42,109 bases of DNA from Gemmatimonadota bacterium (GTDB lineage: Bacteria > Gemmatimonadota > Gemmatimonadetes > Longimicrobiales > Gaopeijiaceae), in assembly GCA_007120305.1 (NCBI GenBank), contig SKNW01000010.1, positions 1-42,109 on the forward strand, read 5' to 3'. The translations under genes and the position numbers were made by a program. Below are positions 1,054-42,109 of the stretch, one piece after another. The notes beneath the pieces are model-generated. The model had not been told where the DNA came from. It made no database searches and saw only the letters and a list, made by a program, of their open reading frames with translations. Position 1 is the stretch's first letter; each line of letters opens with the position of its first letter.

Positions 1054-1506
1054 TCAGTCGTCGGCGGAGGTGCGTACCTTGCCCTTCACCAGAAGGTCCA
1101 GCGCGGCACGCTGGGCGTCGGAAAGCTCCGGAGGGAGGCCCACCGGCACTGCGCGACCCCGTCCATCCGGGAGGTGGAGGACCATCTGGTCCCAGCGGGG
1201 ACGGCCCTCCAGGGGTGTGGCGCGACCGGTGGCGTCCACGACGACGCTGCGCCCCGGCCCAACCGAGGCCGCAGCCAGCTCCAACCCGAACGCGAGCCAT
1301 GCCTCCAGGGGGTCGGCCTCGCCGCGCCCGACCGCTCCCACGATCTGGACCTCGTAGCGCGCCACCATCTCCCGGTAGGCCGCTTCATCCGCCCCCCGCA
1401 GGTCGCGCAGAAGGCCTCGGTAGAACTCCCGGGGATCCCGGGCGCCGGTGGCGGCCCGTCGTTCGGCGAAGCGCCGGTCGGCCAGGGTGGAAAGATCGTC
1501 GGTCAT
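1054..1506 (-). CDS. Hypothetical protein (150 aa)
   Basis: ATG at 1506, non-biased composition, no overlapping better ORF. Confidence 0.6.
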   Translation of the reverse strand: MTDDLSTLADRRFAERRAATGARDPREFYRGLLRDLRGADEAAYREMVARYEVQIVGAVGRGEADPLEAWLAFGLELAAASVGPGRSVVVDATGRATPLEGRPRWDQMVLHLPDGRGRAVPVGLPPELSDAQRAALDLLVKGKVRTSADD

Positions 1507-1533
1507 CCCGCACGATGGGGCCGGGAGCCGAAG

Positions 1534-1637
1534 GGGTCAATGTACAGGGTCATCGCACAGGGTCATCGCACCGGGTCATCGCACCGGGTCATCGCACCAG
1601 GTCAACGCACCGTGTCATCGCACCAGGTCAACGCGGA
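1534..1637. repeat. 13-bp tandem array, about 8 copies, consensus GGGTCATCGCACC (minus strand GGTGCGATGACCC)
   Basis: Units at 1534,1547,1560,1573,1586,1599,1612,1625 read directly. Confidence 0.93.
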
Positions 1638-32686: not shown

Positions 32687-33507
32687 GCGGTGCCCCGATA
32701 GGCGGAGAGACAATCAGCGGAGCGAGGACCGGAGGCCCGCTCCGGAATCTGCTCCGGGTGCTGGAGACCCGGCCGGCGTTCGGGATCGGCCTGTTCGCCG
32801 TCTTCTACGGGGTCGGGGTGGTGGGTCACCTCCTGGACGGGGTGCGTCCGACCATGCTCCTCATCACCCCCTACTTCCTTCCGGCCATGGGCCTCCTGGC
32901 CCTCGCCACCCTCCTGGCGCCAACGGGCGAACCGAGCCGCTCCAGGTTCTGGGCCTGGGCCGGAGGGACCTTCGCTGCCACCTGGGCCCTGGAGGTCCTG
33001 GGCGTGCACACGGGCATCGTCTTCGGCGAGTACGTGTACGGTCGGGGCCTGGGGGCGCCCATCCTGGGGGTCCCGCCCCTCATCGGGTTCAACTGGGTGC
33101 TGGTCTGCCTGGGGATGCTGATCTGGGTGACCTCCGCCGAGGCGTGGTGGGTGGCCCGGAGGCGCGAAGAGGGCCGGACGTTCAAAGGGGGCCGGACGTT
33201 CGAAGGGGGCCGGGAGGATGGGCATCTTCCCCGGCCAATCCTGGCCCTGGCGGCGGCGGTGCTGGCCACCGGCTTTGACTGGGTCATGGAGCCCGTGGCC
33301 ATCGGGCTGGGCTACTGGAGCTGGGCGGGAGGGGACATCCCTCTGCAGAACTACGTCGCCTGGTTTGCCATTGCCCTGGGCGCCTCCCTGGCGTGGCTCT
33401 ACCTCCTCCCTCGCGCGATCCGGACCGCCACGCGGCTCCCGGCATGGCATGTCCTCGCCCAGCTCCTCTTCTTCGCGGCGCTCCGCGTGGGGCTTTTCAG
33501 TGGGTGA
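32683..33507 (+). CDS. CruF-like (carotenoid biosynthesis/DUF422) integral membrane protein
   Basis: 'GIVFGEYVYGRGLGAPILGVPPLIGFNWVL', 'FDWVMEPVAIGLGYWSWAGGDIPLQNYVAWF'; ATGA overlap. Confidence 0.85.
   Translation: MSGAPIGGETISGARTGGPLRNLLRVLETRPAFGIGLFAVFYGVGVVGHLLDGVRPTMLLITPYFLPAMGLLALATLLAPTGEPSRSRFWAWAGGTFAATWALEVLGVHTGIVFGEYVYGRGLGAPILGVPPLIGFNWVLVCLGMLIWVTSAEAWWVARRREEGRTFKGGRTFEGGREDGHLPRPILALAAAVLATGFDWVMEPVAIGLGYWSWAGGDIPLQNYVAWFAIALGASLAWLYLLPRAIRTATRLPAWHVLAQLLFFAALRVGLFSG
33172..33207 (+). repeat. 18-bp in-frame tandem duplication (GGCCGGACGTTCRAAGGG x2) in the CruF-like CDS
   Basis: Direct reading; encodes GRTFKG-GRTFEG. Confidence 0.9.
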
Positions 33508-33570
33508 TCGGGCGGGTGGTTGATCGGTCGGTGGGTGATCGGTCGGTGGGTGATCCGGCCCTGGGTGATC
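33502..33570 (+). repeat. 15/16-bp tandem array x5 (consensus GGTCGGTGGGTGATC)
   Basis: TGATC cores end at 33509, 33525, 33540, 33555, 33570. Confidence 0.9.
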
Positions 33571-35312
33571 CGGCGGCACGAGGGCACGTTCGCCCCGGGG
33601 TTCGGGCACTCCTCCGGCCCAAGCTCCGGAGCAAGTGGAACCGGAGCGCCCGACGGGAGGGAGGCCGGGTCCGGCTGGCCTTCCTGGGCGTCCTCGCGCT
33701 GGGGTTCTGGGCCCTCCTCTTCACCCTCATCTACCGGATGCTGCTGTACTTCCGGGGGGCGGAGGGGATCGGCGACCTGCTGGCGGGGAAACTCCTGGGG
33801 ATCGGATTCCTGACCTTCCTCATGATCCTCCTCCTCTCCAACGTCATCACGGCCCTCTCCACCTTCTTCCTCTCCCGGGACCTGGATCTCCTCCTGGCGG
33901 CGCCGGTGGACCCCCTGCAGGTCTACTGGGCGCGCCTCACCGAGAGCATGGTGAACTCCTCGTGGATGGTGGTGCTCCTTGTGGTCCCCCTGCTGGCCGC
34001 CTACGGTGTCATGTACGGCGCCTCGCCTCCCTTCTGGCTCCTGGCGGCCGTGGTGCTCCTGGCCTTCCTGGTGCTCCCGGCGGTGGCAGGTTCGGCGCTG
34101 ACCCTGGTCCTGGTGAACGTCTTTCCGGCCCGGCGTACGCGGGACCTGCTGGCGCTGGTGGGGCTCCTTGCCGCCGCCGGCGTGGTGCTTCTCGTCCGGC
34201 TGCTCCAGCCCGAGCGACTGGTGCGGCCCGACGAGTTCCGCTCCCTCGTGGACTTCATGGCGGTGCTCCGCACCCCCACCTCGCCCTGGCTTCCCTCGGA
34301 GTGGGCGGCCTCCACCCTCCTCACCTTCCTCACGGGTCGGTGGGATGCCTTTCCCCTGGTCCTCCTGGTGAGCACCGCCGCGGCGGCCCTGGTCCTGGGG
34401 GGGGTGCTGCACCTCAAGGCGTTCCCCTCCGGCTATTCCCGGGCCCAGGAAGGGGCGGAGCAGCAGGCGGGACGGACCCGGAGCCGATGGGCAGAGCGGC
34501 TCGTTCCGGCCCGGAACCCGGCGATCCGGCAGCTCGTGGCCAAGGAGGTGCGTGTCTTCTTCCGGGACACCACCCAGTGGTCCCAGCTCATCCTCCTGGC
34601 GGTGCTGGTGGTGGTCTACGTCTACAACATCCGGGTGCTGCCGGTGGGACGAACGGCCGACGTCTCGTTCTTCCTGGTCAACGTCATCGGGTTCCTGAAC
34701 CTGGGGCTGGCCGGGTTCGTGGTGGCGGCCATTGCGGCCCGCTTCGTCTTCCCGGCCATGTCGCTGGAGGGACGCATGAACTGGCTTCTCCGCTCCTCCC
34801 CCCTGGATCCCCGGACCCTCTTCTGGACCAAGTACGCCGTGGGGACGCTCCCTCTCCTCGTCGTGGCCCTCCCCCTTATCGTCCTCACCAACCTGACGCT
34901 GGAGGTCTCTCCCCTCCTCTTCTGGGTCTCCACCCTGGCCATGGTGGGGGCCACCCTGGCCATGACCGCCATGGCGCTGGTCCTGGGGGCCCTGTTTCCG
35001 AACCACGAGACCGAGAACCCGGCCGAGATCCCCACCTCCTTCGGGGGACTTCTCTTCATGATGTCGGCGGTGGCGTACCTGGCGGCCGTGGTGGCTCTCT
35101 GCGGCTGGCCCGTCTACCGGATCCTGCGGGCCCGCCTGGCCGAGGTGGCAGGCGGCCCCGGGGCGATGGTCCCGGACGTGGGGCTCCTTCCCCAGGTGCT
35201 GGGCTTCGGGGGAGCCACGCTCCTGACCGGGGTCATCATTGCCCTCTCCCTCCGCCTCGGGGTGCGACGCATCCGCGAGGCCGAGACCTTCGTGGGAGAG
35301 GGGGCGGCCTGA
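33504..35312 (+). CDS. ABC-2/putative ABC exporter permease
   Basis: About 12 hydrophobic segments; GTG at 33504 overlaps upstream stop (GTGA); alternative in-frame GTGs at 33516, 33531, 33546. Confidence 0.82.
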   Translation: MIGRVVDRSVGDRSVGDPALGDPAARGHVRPGVRALLRPKLRSKWNRSARREGGRVRLAFLGVLALGFWALLFTLIYRMLLYFRGAEGIGDLLAGKLLGIGFLTFLMILLLSNVITALSTFFLSRDLDLLLAAPVDPLQVYWARLTESMVNSSWMVVLLVVPLLAAYGVMYGASPPFWLLAAVVLLAFLVLPAVAGSALTLVLVNVFPARRTRDLLALVGLLAAAGVVLLVRLLQPERLVRPDEFRSLVDFMAVLRTPTSPWLPSEWAASTLLTFLTGRWDAFPLVLLVSTAAAALVLGGVLHLKAFPSGYSRAQEGAEQQAGRTRSRWAERLVPARNPAIRQLVAKEVRVFFRDTTQWSQLILLAVLVVVYVYNIRVLPVGRTADVSFFLVNVIGFLNLGLAGFVVAAIAARFVFPAMSLEGRMNWLLRSSPLDPRTLFWTKYAVGTLPLLVVALPLIVLTNLTLEVSPLLFWVSTLAMVGATLAMTAMALVLGALFPNHETENPAEIPTSFGGLLFMMSAVAYLAAVVALCGWPVYRILRARLAEVAGGPGAMVPDVGLLPQVLGFGGATLLTGVIIALSLRLGVRRIREAETFVGEGAA

Positions 35313-36029: not shown

Positions 36030-37604
36030 TCAGGGAAGGAAGGCGTTTACTCCCACGAGAATCATGCCGATCATGGCGCCCAGGATGTAGCCCAGGCGCA
36101 CGATGAGGCGGAGTTCCCGCTCGGTGACGCGCCGTACCAGAGCCTCCAGTTCGGCCGTGGGGTAGGCCATGACCTTGGCCTCGACGCGGTGGACCACGTC
36201 CATGGTCTGGACCAGTTCGGGGATCTGCCCCTGGAGCCAGCCCCAGAGCGGCTCCGACAGGGCCGCCTCCAGGCGCGCGGGGGCTCCGTCGGGAAGCCAG
36301 TCGGCGGGACGACCGATGGGACGGTCAAGGAGTCCCAGGAGCGCCCGCTGCAGGGCGTTTCGGTAGGCCTCCCGGGCCGCGCCGCTGCGGGCGGCCGTCA
36401 CCACCCCTTCGGCGATCCGCTCCGGGGGAACGTGGCGGAGCAGGTCCCCCCAGGTGCCCTCCGACGCCTTCCCCAGCCCAGCCTGCAGCTTCTCCACCAG
36501 GAACCCCCGGGTCGAGGGATCCCGCGCCATCCCCAGCACCCACCCGGCGAGGGTCTCCCGGGTCCGGACCACCGAGTCGTCCTCGGGCGCACCCAGAACC
36601 TCGGTCACGGGGCGACGCATCAACTCCACCACCGCCTCGTTCACTCCCCGGGCCAGGGCCTTCTGGATGTCCGGCTCCCGGAGCATCTCGGCCACCCGCT
36701 CGGCACCTTCGGCCTGAACGGTGTCCAGCACCCGCTCCAGCGTGTCCTCGGTCACCACCAGCTTGGCCACCAGACGCTGATGGAAGCGCAGGTCCCCCAG
36801 GAGGCGCTGGAAGAGGTCGTGAAGGGCCGTCTCCACCCTTGCCCGGGCCACGGGGTCTTCCAGCAGCCGGCCCAGCCGCTGGACGGCCACGGGCAGGTAG
36901 GTGGCCATGGCCCGTTCCAGGGAACCGGCCAGCCCCAGTGGGAGGATCTCCTCGAAGGTCCGGTCCGGCCGGAGGAGGGCCCGGGATCCCCGCTCCAGGT
37001 AGTCGTCCACAGCGGACCGGAAGCTCTCCCGTTCCACGGCGGATCCGAGCCAGTCTTCGACGGCCCGGGTCACCGCGGCTTCCCGGGCCGGCGTGAGGAG
37101 ATCTCCCACCGGCTCTCCGGCCATCCGGGTCAGGAGCTCGGCGGTGCTGCGACCCGCGGCCGCCTCGAAGTCTTCCGAATCCATCCAGGCGGTGAGGCGG
37201 GTGGCCAGGTGCTCGGCCACCCCCTCCAGGACACGCGTGGCTTCGGCCTCCAGCTCCGGAGGGAGGAGTTCCCGGAGGCTCCCCCGCTCCTCCCGGAGCA
37301 GACCGTCGAGGAACGCGGTGAGCCGTCGGTCAAAGGCTTCGCGGATCTCCTCTCCGCCCAGGATCCCCTCCAGATCCTCCCGGGTCAGGAGCCGGTTTCC
37401 CACCGTGCGCCCCACGGCGGAGGCGAGCCTCGGCTGGTTCTTGGGGATGGCGCCGTGGAGGAACCGGATGGGCCACCGTCCGAAGAGCCGGGGCGGCTCG
37501 TAGGGATGAAAGAGCATCCACACCGCCACGGTGTTCGTGAGCCCCCCCGCCAGGGAGCCGGCCACCACCGTGACGGCGGCGCGGATCAAGTCGGCCTGGG
37601 TCAT
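36030..37604 (-). CDS. DUF445 family membrane protein
   Basis: 'GSLAGGLTNTVAVWMLFHPYEPP', 'GAIPKNQPRLASAVGRTVGNRLLT', C-terminal 'RLGYILGAMIGMILVGVNAF'. Confidence 0.88.
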   Translation of the reverse strand: MTQADLIRAAVTVVAGSLAGGLTNTVAVWMLFHPYEPPRLFGRWPIRFLHGAIPKNQPRLASAVGRTVGNRLLTREDLEGILGGEEIREAFDRRLTAFLDGLLREERGSLRELLPPELEAEATRVLEGVAEHLATRLTAWMDSEDFEAAAGRSTAELLTRMAGEPVGDLLTPAREAAVTRAVEDWLGSAVERESFRSAVDDYLERGSRALLRPDRTFEEILPLGLAGSLERAMATYLPVAVQRLGRLLEDPVARARVETALHDLFQRLLGDLRFHQRLVAKLVVTEDTLERVLDTVQAEGAERVAEMLREPDIQKALARGVNEAVVELMRRPVTEVLGAPEDDSVVRTRETLAGWVLGMARDPSTRGFLVEKLQAGLGKASEGTWGDLLRHVPPERIAEGVVTAARSGAAREAYRNALQRALLGLLDRPIGRPADWLPDGAPARLEAALSEPLWGWLQGQIPELVQTMDVVHRVEAKVMAYPTAELEALVRRVTERELRLIVRLGYILGAMIGMILVGVNAFLP

Positions 37605-37655
37605 GGCGCCCGTCTCATCGCCGCTCTCTCATCGCTGCCCCTCTCATCGCTGCCG
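37601..37655 (-). repeat. 14/15-bp tandem array carrying four ATGA junctions between the lipoprotein gene and the DUF445 gene
   Basis: Minus strand GCGATGAGAGGGGCAGCGATGAGAGAGCGGCGATGAGACGGGCGCCATGA. Confidence 0.92.
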
Positions 37656-38735
37656 GTGCCTCACCACGCCCCGTACCGCCAGGCGCTCCCCCAGGATCAG
37701 GATCTCTCCTTCCACCTCCAGGAACCCCTCCACGGGCAGAATGGGCCCCGGACCCTCTTCCACATTGAGGAAGGACCGGACCACCCGGAGTTCTCCTCCG
37801 AAGGCAGCGGCGGGGGCCGCGCCTCCGGTACCGGTCCCCGCGCCGGGGCGACGAGCCTCCAGCGACCATCCGGTGGGAACATCGCGCCGGGCCCGTTCCA
37901 GCGGGCGGACTCCGGACCAGCGTACCTGGACCTCGTTCCAGTTCCGCTCCTGGAAGGCCACTCGGGACCAGCCGAGCCACACTCCGGCCTCCCGCTCCGC
38001 AGCCCCGGGCGGCTCCCGCAGGAGGACCTGGGTGCCCGCCCCGTCGTGGAGGAACATCCAGTCCAGTCCGGGAGCACTCCCCGGCCCCCGGCTCCGGCTC
38101 AGGTCCAGCAGGAGGCCCTGGATTCCACCTGACGGCAGCACCACCTCTCCGCGGTGGATCCGCCACACCGATCCGGCGTCCGGAACCCACTCGGCCAGAA
38201 ACTCGCCGGGGATGAGCTCCACCGTGCGGGGCGGCGCGTCGAAGAGGAGCGACGCCACCGCATCTCCCTCGCCCACGACCAGGCGGACCGGCCCCCCGGG
38301 GAGGATCCGCCAGGGAAACCGGCTCAGGGGCGTGACCAGGGTGTCGGCCAGCAGGAGTTCCCACGTTCCCCCTCGCCCCAGGGAGGCCTGCCGGTGGCGA
38401 AGGATCCCCTCCTCGGTGATGGTGGAGCGGAAGCTCCAGGGGAGAAGGGTGGTGGAGTCCGAGGCCAGCGAAAGGAAGGTCAGCGCCCGGAGATGTTCCG
38501 CGCCCGCCACGGGCGCCGCGCCCTCCGGAGAGGGAGCAGGGGGAGGATCGTCCTCCGGGGCCAGGGCTCCACCCTCCGCGAAAGGGGAGGCCCCGTCTTC
38601 GGAATCGCCCGGGAGGGCGTCTCCGCGGTCGGTGCCTCCGCAGGCGGTGGCCAGGAGCCAGAGCGGGACCAGCGGGACCAGGAAGACCCTGAGCCGGTGG
38701 GGGACCGGGTTCCGGGAGGGGGTGGGAGAGAACAT
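37644..38735 (-). CDS. Predicted lipoprotein, possibly lipocalin/AttH-like
   Basis: Lipobox LLATAC; beta-rich C-terminal part; start at 38735 preferred over 38777. Confidence 0.6.
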   Translation of the reverse strand: MFSPTPSRNPVPHRLRVFLVPLVPLWLLATACGGTDRGDALPGDSEDGASPFAEGGALAPEDDPPPAPSPEGAAPVAGAEHLRALTFLSLASDSTTLLPWSFRSTITEEGILRHRQASLGRGGTWELLLADTLVTPLSRFPWRILPGGPVRLVVGEGDAVASLLFDAPPRTVELIPGEFLAEWVPDAGSVWRIHRGEVVLPSGGIQGLLLDLSRSRGPGSAPGLDWMFLHDGAGTQVLLREPPGAAEREAGVWLGWSRVAFQERNWNEVQVRWSGVRPLERARRDVPTGWSLEARRPGAGTGTGGAAPAAAFGGELRVVRSFLNVEEGPGPILPVEGFLEVEGEILILGERLAVRGVVRHRQR

Positions 38736-38833: not shown

Positions 38834-40123
38834 ATGCAGCTCTACACCAAGATCCTCCTGGGGCTCGTCCTCGGGGCGGCCGTCGGCTTTGCCGCCAATG
38901 TCTTCCAGCTCCAGGGGCTGACCACGGTCCTCCTGGCGCTGGAGCCCATCGGGACGGCCTTCATCCGTCTCATCACCATGATCATCATCCCGCTGGTGGT
39001 GGCGAGCCTCATGGTGGGCACGGCCTCGCTGGGGGACCTGGCCAAGCTGGGGCGGATCGGAGGGAAGACCATCGGCTTCTACCTCTGCACCACCGCGGTG
39101 GCCGTGACCATCGGGCTCATGGTGTCCAACGTGGTGAAGCCCGGGTCCCGCATCGACGACACCACCCGCGATGCCCTCTCGGCCCGCTTCGAGGGAGATG
39201 CCGTGAGCCGCATGCAGCTGGCGGACGAGGCTCCCCGGGTCATCGACACCCTGCTGAACATCATCCCCAGGAACCCCATCCAGTCGGCGGCCAACCTGGA
39301 GCTCCTTCCCCTCATCTTCTTCACCATCATCTTCGCCGCAGCGGTGAGCGTCATCGCCCCGAAGCGGCGGGAGGCGGTGATCACCTTCTTCGAGGGGGTG
39401 AACGACGCCAGCATGGTGGTCATTGACTGGGTCATGAAGCTGGCGCCCTACGCGGTGTTCGCCCTCATTGCCGCCGTGGTGGCGGACTTCGGGGCCGACC
39501 TCCTGGTAAGCCTCCTGGTCTATTCGGCGGTGGTGGTGGCCGGTCTCCTCATCCACCTCACCGTGACCTACGGACTCGCGGTCCGCTTCCTGGCCCGCCT
39601 CCCCTTCGGAACCTTCCTCCGGCGCATCTCCAAGGCGCCCCTGGTGGCGTTCTCCACCTCCAGTTCCAACGCCACCCTGCCGGTGACCATGGAAACGGCG
39701 GAGACCGAGGTGGGGATCTCCAAGCCGGTGGCGAGCTTCGTCCTTCCGCTGGGGGCTACCATCAACATGGACGGCACGGCGCTCTACCAGGCCGTGGCCG
39801 TCATGTTCATCGCCCAGATCTACGGGATCGAGATCGGGATCGCCGAGCAGCTCATCGTGGTGCTCACCGCCACCCTGGCCTCCATCGGGGCCGCAGGTGT
39901 GCCCAGCGCCGGGATCATCACGCTGATCATCGTGCTGAACGCCGTGGGGCTCGGAGCCCAGGTCCAGGCGGGGATCGCCCTGATCCTGGGTGTGGACCGC
40001 ATCCTCGACATGATCCGCACCTCAGTGAACGTCACCGGCGATCTCACCGCCGCCGCCGTGGTGGCCCGGAGCGAGGGCGAGGACCTCTCCTTCGAGCCGC
40101 GGGGAGGACGATCCGCCGCCTGA
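38834..40123 (+). CDS. Dicarboxylate/amino acid:cation symporter (DAACS)
   Basis: 'STSSSNATLPVTM', 'LPLGATINMDGTALYQ', 'AGVPSAGIITL'. Confidence 0.95.
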   Translation: MQLYTKILLGLVLGAAVGFAANVFQLQGLTTVLLALEPIGTAFIRLITMIIIPLVVASLMVGTASLGDLAKLGRIGGKTIGFYLCTTAVAVTIGLMVSNVVKPGSRIDDTTRDALSARFEGDAVSRMQLADEAPRVIDTLLNIIPRNPIQSAANLELLPLIFFTIIFAAAVSVIAPKRREAVITFFEGVNDASMVVIDWVMKLAPYAVFALIAAVVADFGADLLVSLLVYSAVVVAGLLIHLTVTYGLAVRFLARLPFGTFLRRISKAPLVAFSTSSSNATLPVTMETAETEVGISKPVASFVLPLGATINMDGTALYQAVAVMFIAQIYGIEIGIAEQLIVVLTATLASIGAAGVPSAGIITLIIVLNAVGLGAQVQAGIALILGVDRILDMIRTSVNVTGDLTAAAVVARSEGEDLSFEPRGGRSAA

Positions 40124-40175
40124 TGTCCTGCGTCTGATGTCCTGCGTCTGATGTCCTGCGCCTGATGTCCTTGCG
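40121..40175 (+). repeat. 14-bp tandem array x4 (TGATGTCCTGCGTC) starting exactly at the symporter stop codon
   Basis: Units at 40121, 40135, 40149, 40163. Confidence 0.93.
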
Positions 40176-40917
40176 TCAGGGGTGCAGGCGGTACTGGATC
40201 GACACGTTGGCGCTGACCCGCTGGAGTCCAGCCTCCACCGGCGTGGGGACGGCCTCCATGGCTGCCATGGCCATGCCCATGTCGGCCCTGAACGAGGGGC
40301 CGGGCTGAGGGAAGCTGGCCCCGCCCTGAACGGTGATGGGTGCGCCCAGCCGCATCCCCAGCGCCTCGGCCATGGCGGACGCCTCGCCCCGGGCCGCCGC
40401 GATGGCGAGGCGGAGCGCCTCCTGCCGGTGGGGCTCGGTGTCGCGGATCTCGAAGCTCATGCCGGCCACGCGGTTGGCTCCGGCCTCCAGCGCGGTGTCC
40501 ACCAGGCGCCCCACGGCATCCACGTCGTCCACGATTACCTGCACCGCGTTCCGGGCCGTGTACCCGGCGATGCGCTGGGGCTCGTTCCCCGACCGGGGGG
40601 CGTAGCGGGGCGCCAGGGAGTACCCGGACGTCTCGATGCGGAGGTCCGGGATGCCGGTGCCCCGGAGCGCCGTGATGACCCGGTCCATGAGGCGGGCGTT
40701 GGCTTCGCCGGCCTCCCTTGCCCCCTCGTGCTCGGTCTCGACGGCAAAGGAGAGGCGGGCCCGGTCCGGGGCCACCTCGACGTAGCCGGATCCGGTCACG
40801 TTCATCGTGGTCTCCTGGGCCAGGAGCCCGGGGGGCGAGGCGACGAGGAGGGAGGCCAGGGCCAGCGCCGGAACCAGGGCGAAGGCGGCAGGCAGGGTCC
40901 GCGGGGAGGTGGGCATG
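40176..40917 (-). CDS. SIMPL domain (DUF541) exported protein
   Basis: Signal peptide; 'VTGSGYVEVAPDRARLSFAVETE', 'YTARNAVQVIVDDVDAVGRLVD'. Confidence 0.9.
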
Positions 40918-42055: not shown

Positions 42056-42066
42056 GCAGGACAGGG

Positions 42067-42109
42067 CTCGCCGGGTCAGGACTCTCCGGGTCAGGACTCT
42101 CCGGGTCAG
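42067..42109. repeat. 15-bp tandem array, at least 3 copies (CTCTCCGGGTCAGGA), runs off window
   Basis: Units at 42067, 42082, 42097. Confidence 0.88.

Follow-up and report, generated by a model that had tools for sequence, protein, structure and literature searches.

The junction between a predicted lipoprotein gene and a DUF445 membrane protein gene is most probably a case of termination-reinitiation coupling that would be carried over a grown gap by micro-ORFs of selected phase, a reading given a probability of about 0.72. The junction lies on the minus strand of a 42,109-nt stretch of DNA from an incomplete Gemmatimonadota MAG; the whole stretch analysed is called the window. The lipoprotein stop and the DUF445 start are separated by a direct gap of 39 nt. 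Across this gap, which would normally break coupling, two micro-ORFs probably hand ribosomes over stepwise. The parts of the junction are:

37644..38735, minus strand: predicted lipoprotein gene, the upstream partner, with a lipobox-like LLATAC near the N-terminus and a C-terminus ending ...RHRQR
37615..37647, minus strand: micro-ORF 1, MRGAAMRERR*, joined at its ATG to the lipoprotein TGA by a 4-nt overlap
37601..37618, minus strand: micro-ORF 2, MRRAP*, whose ATG lies on the micro-ORF 1 TGA and whose own TGA lies on the DUF445 ATG
36030..37604, minus strand: DUF445 membrane protein gene, the downstream partner (PF04286, E 1.7e-29)
37608..37654, minus strand: 15-nt tandem repeat (TRF: 3.2 copies, 81% match), the source of the repeated ATGA motifs

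Read on the minus strand, the junction is ...CACCGGCAGCG ATGA GAGGGGCAGCG ATGA GAGAGCGGCG ATGA GACGGGCGCC ATGA CCCAG, with GCAGCG as the bases just 5' of the first ATGA. The A of each ATGA falls at 37647, 37632, 37618, and 37604, giving intervals of 15, 14, and 14. The lipoprotein gene closes with the codons for H R Q R and a TGA at 37646-37644. Micro-ORF 1 reads ATG AGA GGG GCA GCG ATG AGA GAG CGG CGA TGA and micro-ORF 2 reads ATG AGA CGG GCG CCA TGA. The micro-ORF coordinates, peptides, and ATGA spacings of the original prediction proved exact on rereading, whereas its 4-nt overlap at each of the four ATGAs holds for three. These three true stop/start overlaps link the lipoprotein stop, both micro-ORFs, and the DUF445 start, while the ATGA at 37632 is an in-frame Met within micro-ORF 1. 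The DUF445 start at 37604 is backed by homology, as relatives align from query residue 1-2; a Pfam search of the upstream lipoprotein returned no match. Taken directly, the lipoprotein stop neither overlaps the DUF445 start nor lies within about 10 nt of it, and such proximity is reached solely via the micro-ORFs.

In the proposed mechanism, a ribosome ending on the lipoprotein gene would reinitiate at the overlapping ATG, translate a few codons, and stop at the next ATGA. Such short steps would bring it to the DUF445 start, 43 nt downstream, with no need for long scanning, and the encoded micro-peptides would be functionless. Reinitiation in native E. coli gene pairs drops by 40-80% at +14 nt and is nearly gone at +38 nt (PMC10666635), so at a distance of 39 nt DUF445 would lose its coupling unless ribosomes walked across the gap. 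We infer that stepwise reinitiation is the simplest account. The ancestral state was presumably the usual 4-nt overlap, and the spacer would have grown by 14-15-nt tandem duplication here and by other insertions elsewhere; only overlap-keeping phases would have survived, because DUF445 would rely on ribosomes from the lipoprotein gene. Anti-SD pairing is weak at the DUF445 ATG (-2.8 kcal/mol), and the first two ATGs have values of -6.4 and -6.7. Across junctions, SD strength does not cleanly separate relays from the rest, with a stronger median at relay starts.

The locus on its own is weak as proof because ATGA is common and a tandem period not divisible by 3 readily yields chains. The evidence from relatives rests on 121 family genomes and named GTDB genomes, which gave 109 nonredundant junctions with an upstream ORF; junctions without a lipoprotein homologue were excluded. 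A lipoprotein homologue sits directly upstream of DUF445 throughout the family, and the two co-directional neighbours are conserved together. In an initial set of 43 junctions, the relay signal was suggestive only. Two apparent long-gap junctions (L030, L166) were rejected and reclassed, as the upstream ORF was spurious and the true lipoprotein ends at -4.

The close relatives display several forms of the junction. A same-genus relative with a 79% identical DUF445 reads CAGCC ATGA GGGCCCTGCGCAG ATGA CACAG and has a single 6-codon micro-ORF, MRALRR*, with both overlaps intact. The relative at 71% has GTGA CCGGGGCGCA ATGA and the micro-ORF MTGAQ*. At 67%, two relatives show a simple ATGATG overlap, and one at 65% has two chained micro-ORFs across 42 nt. 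Relay gaps of 4, 9, 10, 13, 22, 25, 42, 54, 55, and 73 nt occur among the relatives, and within one genus (g25), the gaps of 13, 22, 25, and 73 nt differ by multiples of 3.

For the statistical test, junctions were classed by stop context ((A/G/T)TGA, CTGA, or TAA/TAG) and by start context (NTGA or other). A relay was defined by the presence of the first and last NTGA with a continuous overlap chain between them. Lineages were collapsed at 80% identity, and the class test used gaps of >=4 nt. All 15 of the 15 non-window lineages in the NTGA-stop/NTGA-start class are complete relays with gaps of 4-73 nt, 12 of them using a single micro-ORF and 3 using a pair, compared with 0/34 in the remaining classes. 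Random 1-nt indels would give 6.1 relays (P 8e-7) and shuffled spacers 4.7 (P 2.5e-8). The harshest null counts the 12 one-step lineages alone at a chance of one half each, because phase 2 is a direct overlap with an N-terminal extension rather than a gap, and still returns a P of about 2e-4. Every phase-0 junction in the class (the window, L007, L137, and L139) carries a two-step relay. Controls with TAA/TAG stops, or with CTGA stops and non-NTGA starts, have no clear phase.

The same architecture was sought at other gene pairs in 2.2 Mb from three family genomes (the window's own, G025, and G005), using pairs without an overlapping start candidate; genes and starts there are predictions from a home-made gene finder, and the counts are small. 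For NTGA/NTGA pairs with gaps of 4-40 nt, 14/14 besides the window are relays where about half would be expected. All 14 are in phase 1, and the window's two-step chain, in phase 0, brings the total to 15. At gaps of 41-110 nt, 15/30 such pairs are relays, which equals chance and reveals no phase lock. The lock of the NTGA/NTGA pairs is not seen where the upstream stop is CTGA, TAA, or TAG. Because short-gap pairs at other genes are also all relays, the DUF445 locus is probably one case of a wider habit. The stronger proposal, with chances a little short of even, is that this family, and possibly high-GC bacteria at large, uses micro-ORF relays as a general, selected architecture, in which gaps of 4 to about 70 nt would be phase-locked, overlaps would carry ribosomes, and spacers would change length only along relay-keeping paths.

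These comparisons bear on the main alternative, which is that the chain is accidental: a minisatellite with units of 14-15 nt expanded at an ATGA junction, its period, not divisible by 3, made the overlaps, and DUF445 is translated independently or by scanning. The window offers some grounds for this account. It is rich in 12-18-nt arrays, it contains another ATGA array (1534-1634) that lacks an upstream co-directional gene, and ATGA is over-represented overall (260 occurrences vs 168 expected). Yet repeat-free relatives also have complete chains with unrelated spacers, in 15/15 lineages, and the phase lock reappears at other genes, at short gaps only. Shared sequence or tandem repeats fail to explain the chains, since the gaps span 4-73 nt and the spacers are unrelated, and an accidental origin is unlikely. 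The description of the locus as a tandemly duplicated junction accordingly suits the window, where the repeat at 37608-37654 is a real minisatellite of head-to-tail copies, but not its sister or most other relays, which lack tandem copies; duplication is thus one route to a spacer and not the essence. The further suggestion that the junction kept its relay geometry is supported by an unbroken chain in every NTGA-stop/NTGA-start relative with a start-like stop, despite differing spacing. Comparison of the junction in relatives had been named as the place where the idea could fail, and there spacing varies and little spacer sequence is common, yet in the NTGA-stop/NTGA-start class the overlaps are never broken.

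On the DUF445 tree (102 rows), the relay label requires at least 11 changes. Relays mostly adjoin direct -4/-1 overlaps (L007 by L005/L006, L074 by L070, and L170/L173 by L171), and one clade of 22 rows is made up of 10 direct, 10 relay, and 2 other junctions. This pattern would be expected if relay and direct overlap were interchangeable solutions for one need, in which case lineages that gave up coupling would drift to other spacings. Coupling is not universal, as about half of the family junctions fall outside both the direct and the relay type.

The phase may be partly inherited or otherwise caused, because 8/8 CTGA-stop/NTGA-start DUF445 junctions are in relay phase though CTG is a poor start. 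CTG may be usable as a start during reinitiation, the junctions may be relays that have decayed, or phase may be under a second influence. A second alternative to the relay attributes the phase to avoidance of a same-frame downstream gene behind a leaky TGA, where read-through would yield a fusion. Same-frame pairs are somewhat scarcer genome-wide after CTGA stops too (27, 47, and 43 in phases 0, 1, and 2), but read-through avoidance leaves unexplained the two-step relay in every phase-0 junction of the DUF445 class, the position of relays close to direct overlaps on the tree, and the bias toward CGA at the lipoprotein end. CGA as the last codon creates an ATG at the stop, and its excess adds to the case for the relay. 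It is the last lipoprotein codon in 7/19 CGN codons at relay-phase junctions (near-copies not collapsed), and its genome-wide share of CGN is 6-8% in three family genomes. As the sole source of the phase, read-through avoidance is improbable. In the genome-wide set, TGA stops are seldom followed at a gap of 4-40 nt by a gene in the same frame, and no clear shortage of this kind is seen after TAA/TAG; perhaps read-through fusions are avoided.

Slightly less probable still is RNA-unfolding coupling, in which lipoprotein translation opens structure at the DUF445 start, with the micro-ORFs playing no part or merely prolonging ribosome passage. The model is recognised (PMC12548453) and compatible with a relay, but shuffled versions of the junction fold as well as the real one (z 0.59), an Rfam search of it found no family or element, neither result points to a structured leader or attenuator, and structure would impose no phase.

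Micro-ORF relays share features with several known systems. Termination-reinitiation at ATGA/TGATG overlaps (PMC6728339, PMC10666635, PMC12548453) uses the same 4-nt stop/start overlaps in a co-directional pair. As in classic ATGA coupling, several close relatives of the window have a plain -4 overlap; unlike in classic coupling, 39 nt separate the two real genes here, with two micro-ORFs carrying the overlap across.

The relay principle is already known from mycobacterial MIRUs and is found here without a mobile repeat. The senX3-regX3 case of a MIRU was reportedly described by Supply et al. in 1997. MIRUs are small ORFs at a gene start, coupled with -4 spacing and possibly in tandem copies (PMC12548453). 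The window and its relatives likewise have a small ORF that shares NTGA sites with the frames on either side. However, MIRUs are mobile dispersed repeats, whereas the relay spacers of relatives are mutually unrelated, and the present junction would have grown locally and be held by phase. A MIRU-like dispersed-repeat origin was rejected, as the genome elsewhere gives only weak 15-27-nt matches to the window spacer.

Ribosome-delivering uORFs (PMC12548453) resemble the relay micro-ORFs in that their function would lie in the act of translation and not in the peptide, but relay micro-ORFs are intercistronic and would be fed by the upstream gene instead of their own SD. Fourth-site adenine as frameshift proofing (PMC5850271) accounts for common NTGA starts but makes no prediction of spacing phase relative to the upstream stop. 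Phase-locked micro-ORF relays were not found described in the open-access literature, subscription literature lying outside the search.

Genes 20-70 nt apart are usually regarded as uncoupled, since reinitiation measured in native pairs nearly vanishes by 20-40 nt (PMC10666635). If micro-ORF chains keep genes coupled over such distances, the reading of many operon junctions is wrong, and gap phase combined with an NTGA stop and start would offer a simple test for any genome from sequence alone. The relay would also serve as a natural experiment on local reinitiation vs scanning by terminating ribosomes.

Relay-like micro-ORFs also occur behind or across the ends of TAG/TAA-ended lipoproteins (L018, L021, L041, and L044), where they start at or near the stop and end overlapping or abutting the DUF445 start. 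In the TAG-ended L018, L021, and L041, the micro-ORF begins at or just past the stop and terminates on the DUF445 start; in such relays the ribosome would hop a short way forward.

Several other tandem arrays lie in the window. The second ATGA array (1503-1634, minus strand) consists of 13-nt tandem units (GGTGCGATGACCC) upstream of a gene starting at 1506 and has no co-directional gene upstream. Its ATG at 1553 (minus strand) begins an ORF of 16 codons that ends in a TGA overlapping the gene ATG at 1506, and the array's ATGAs 26 nt apart chain too. Possibly the array is the relay in leader form; alternatively, it may show that minisatellites arise here from ATGA sites. A 14-nt array at 40120-40177 (CTGATGTCCTGCGT, 4.1 copies), with units containing TGATG, spans a convergent-gene interval almost exactly from stop to stop. 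A 15-nt tandem array occupies the contig's very end (42062-42109), and arrays of this kind may be what breaks the assembly. Another 15-nt array (33500-33576; GTGGGTGATCGGGCG, 5 copies) lies where two co-directional predicted genes meet, the first ending at 33507 and the second called from 33504, in a GTGA-type overlap region.
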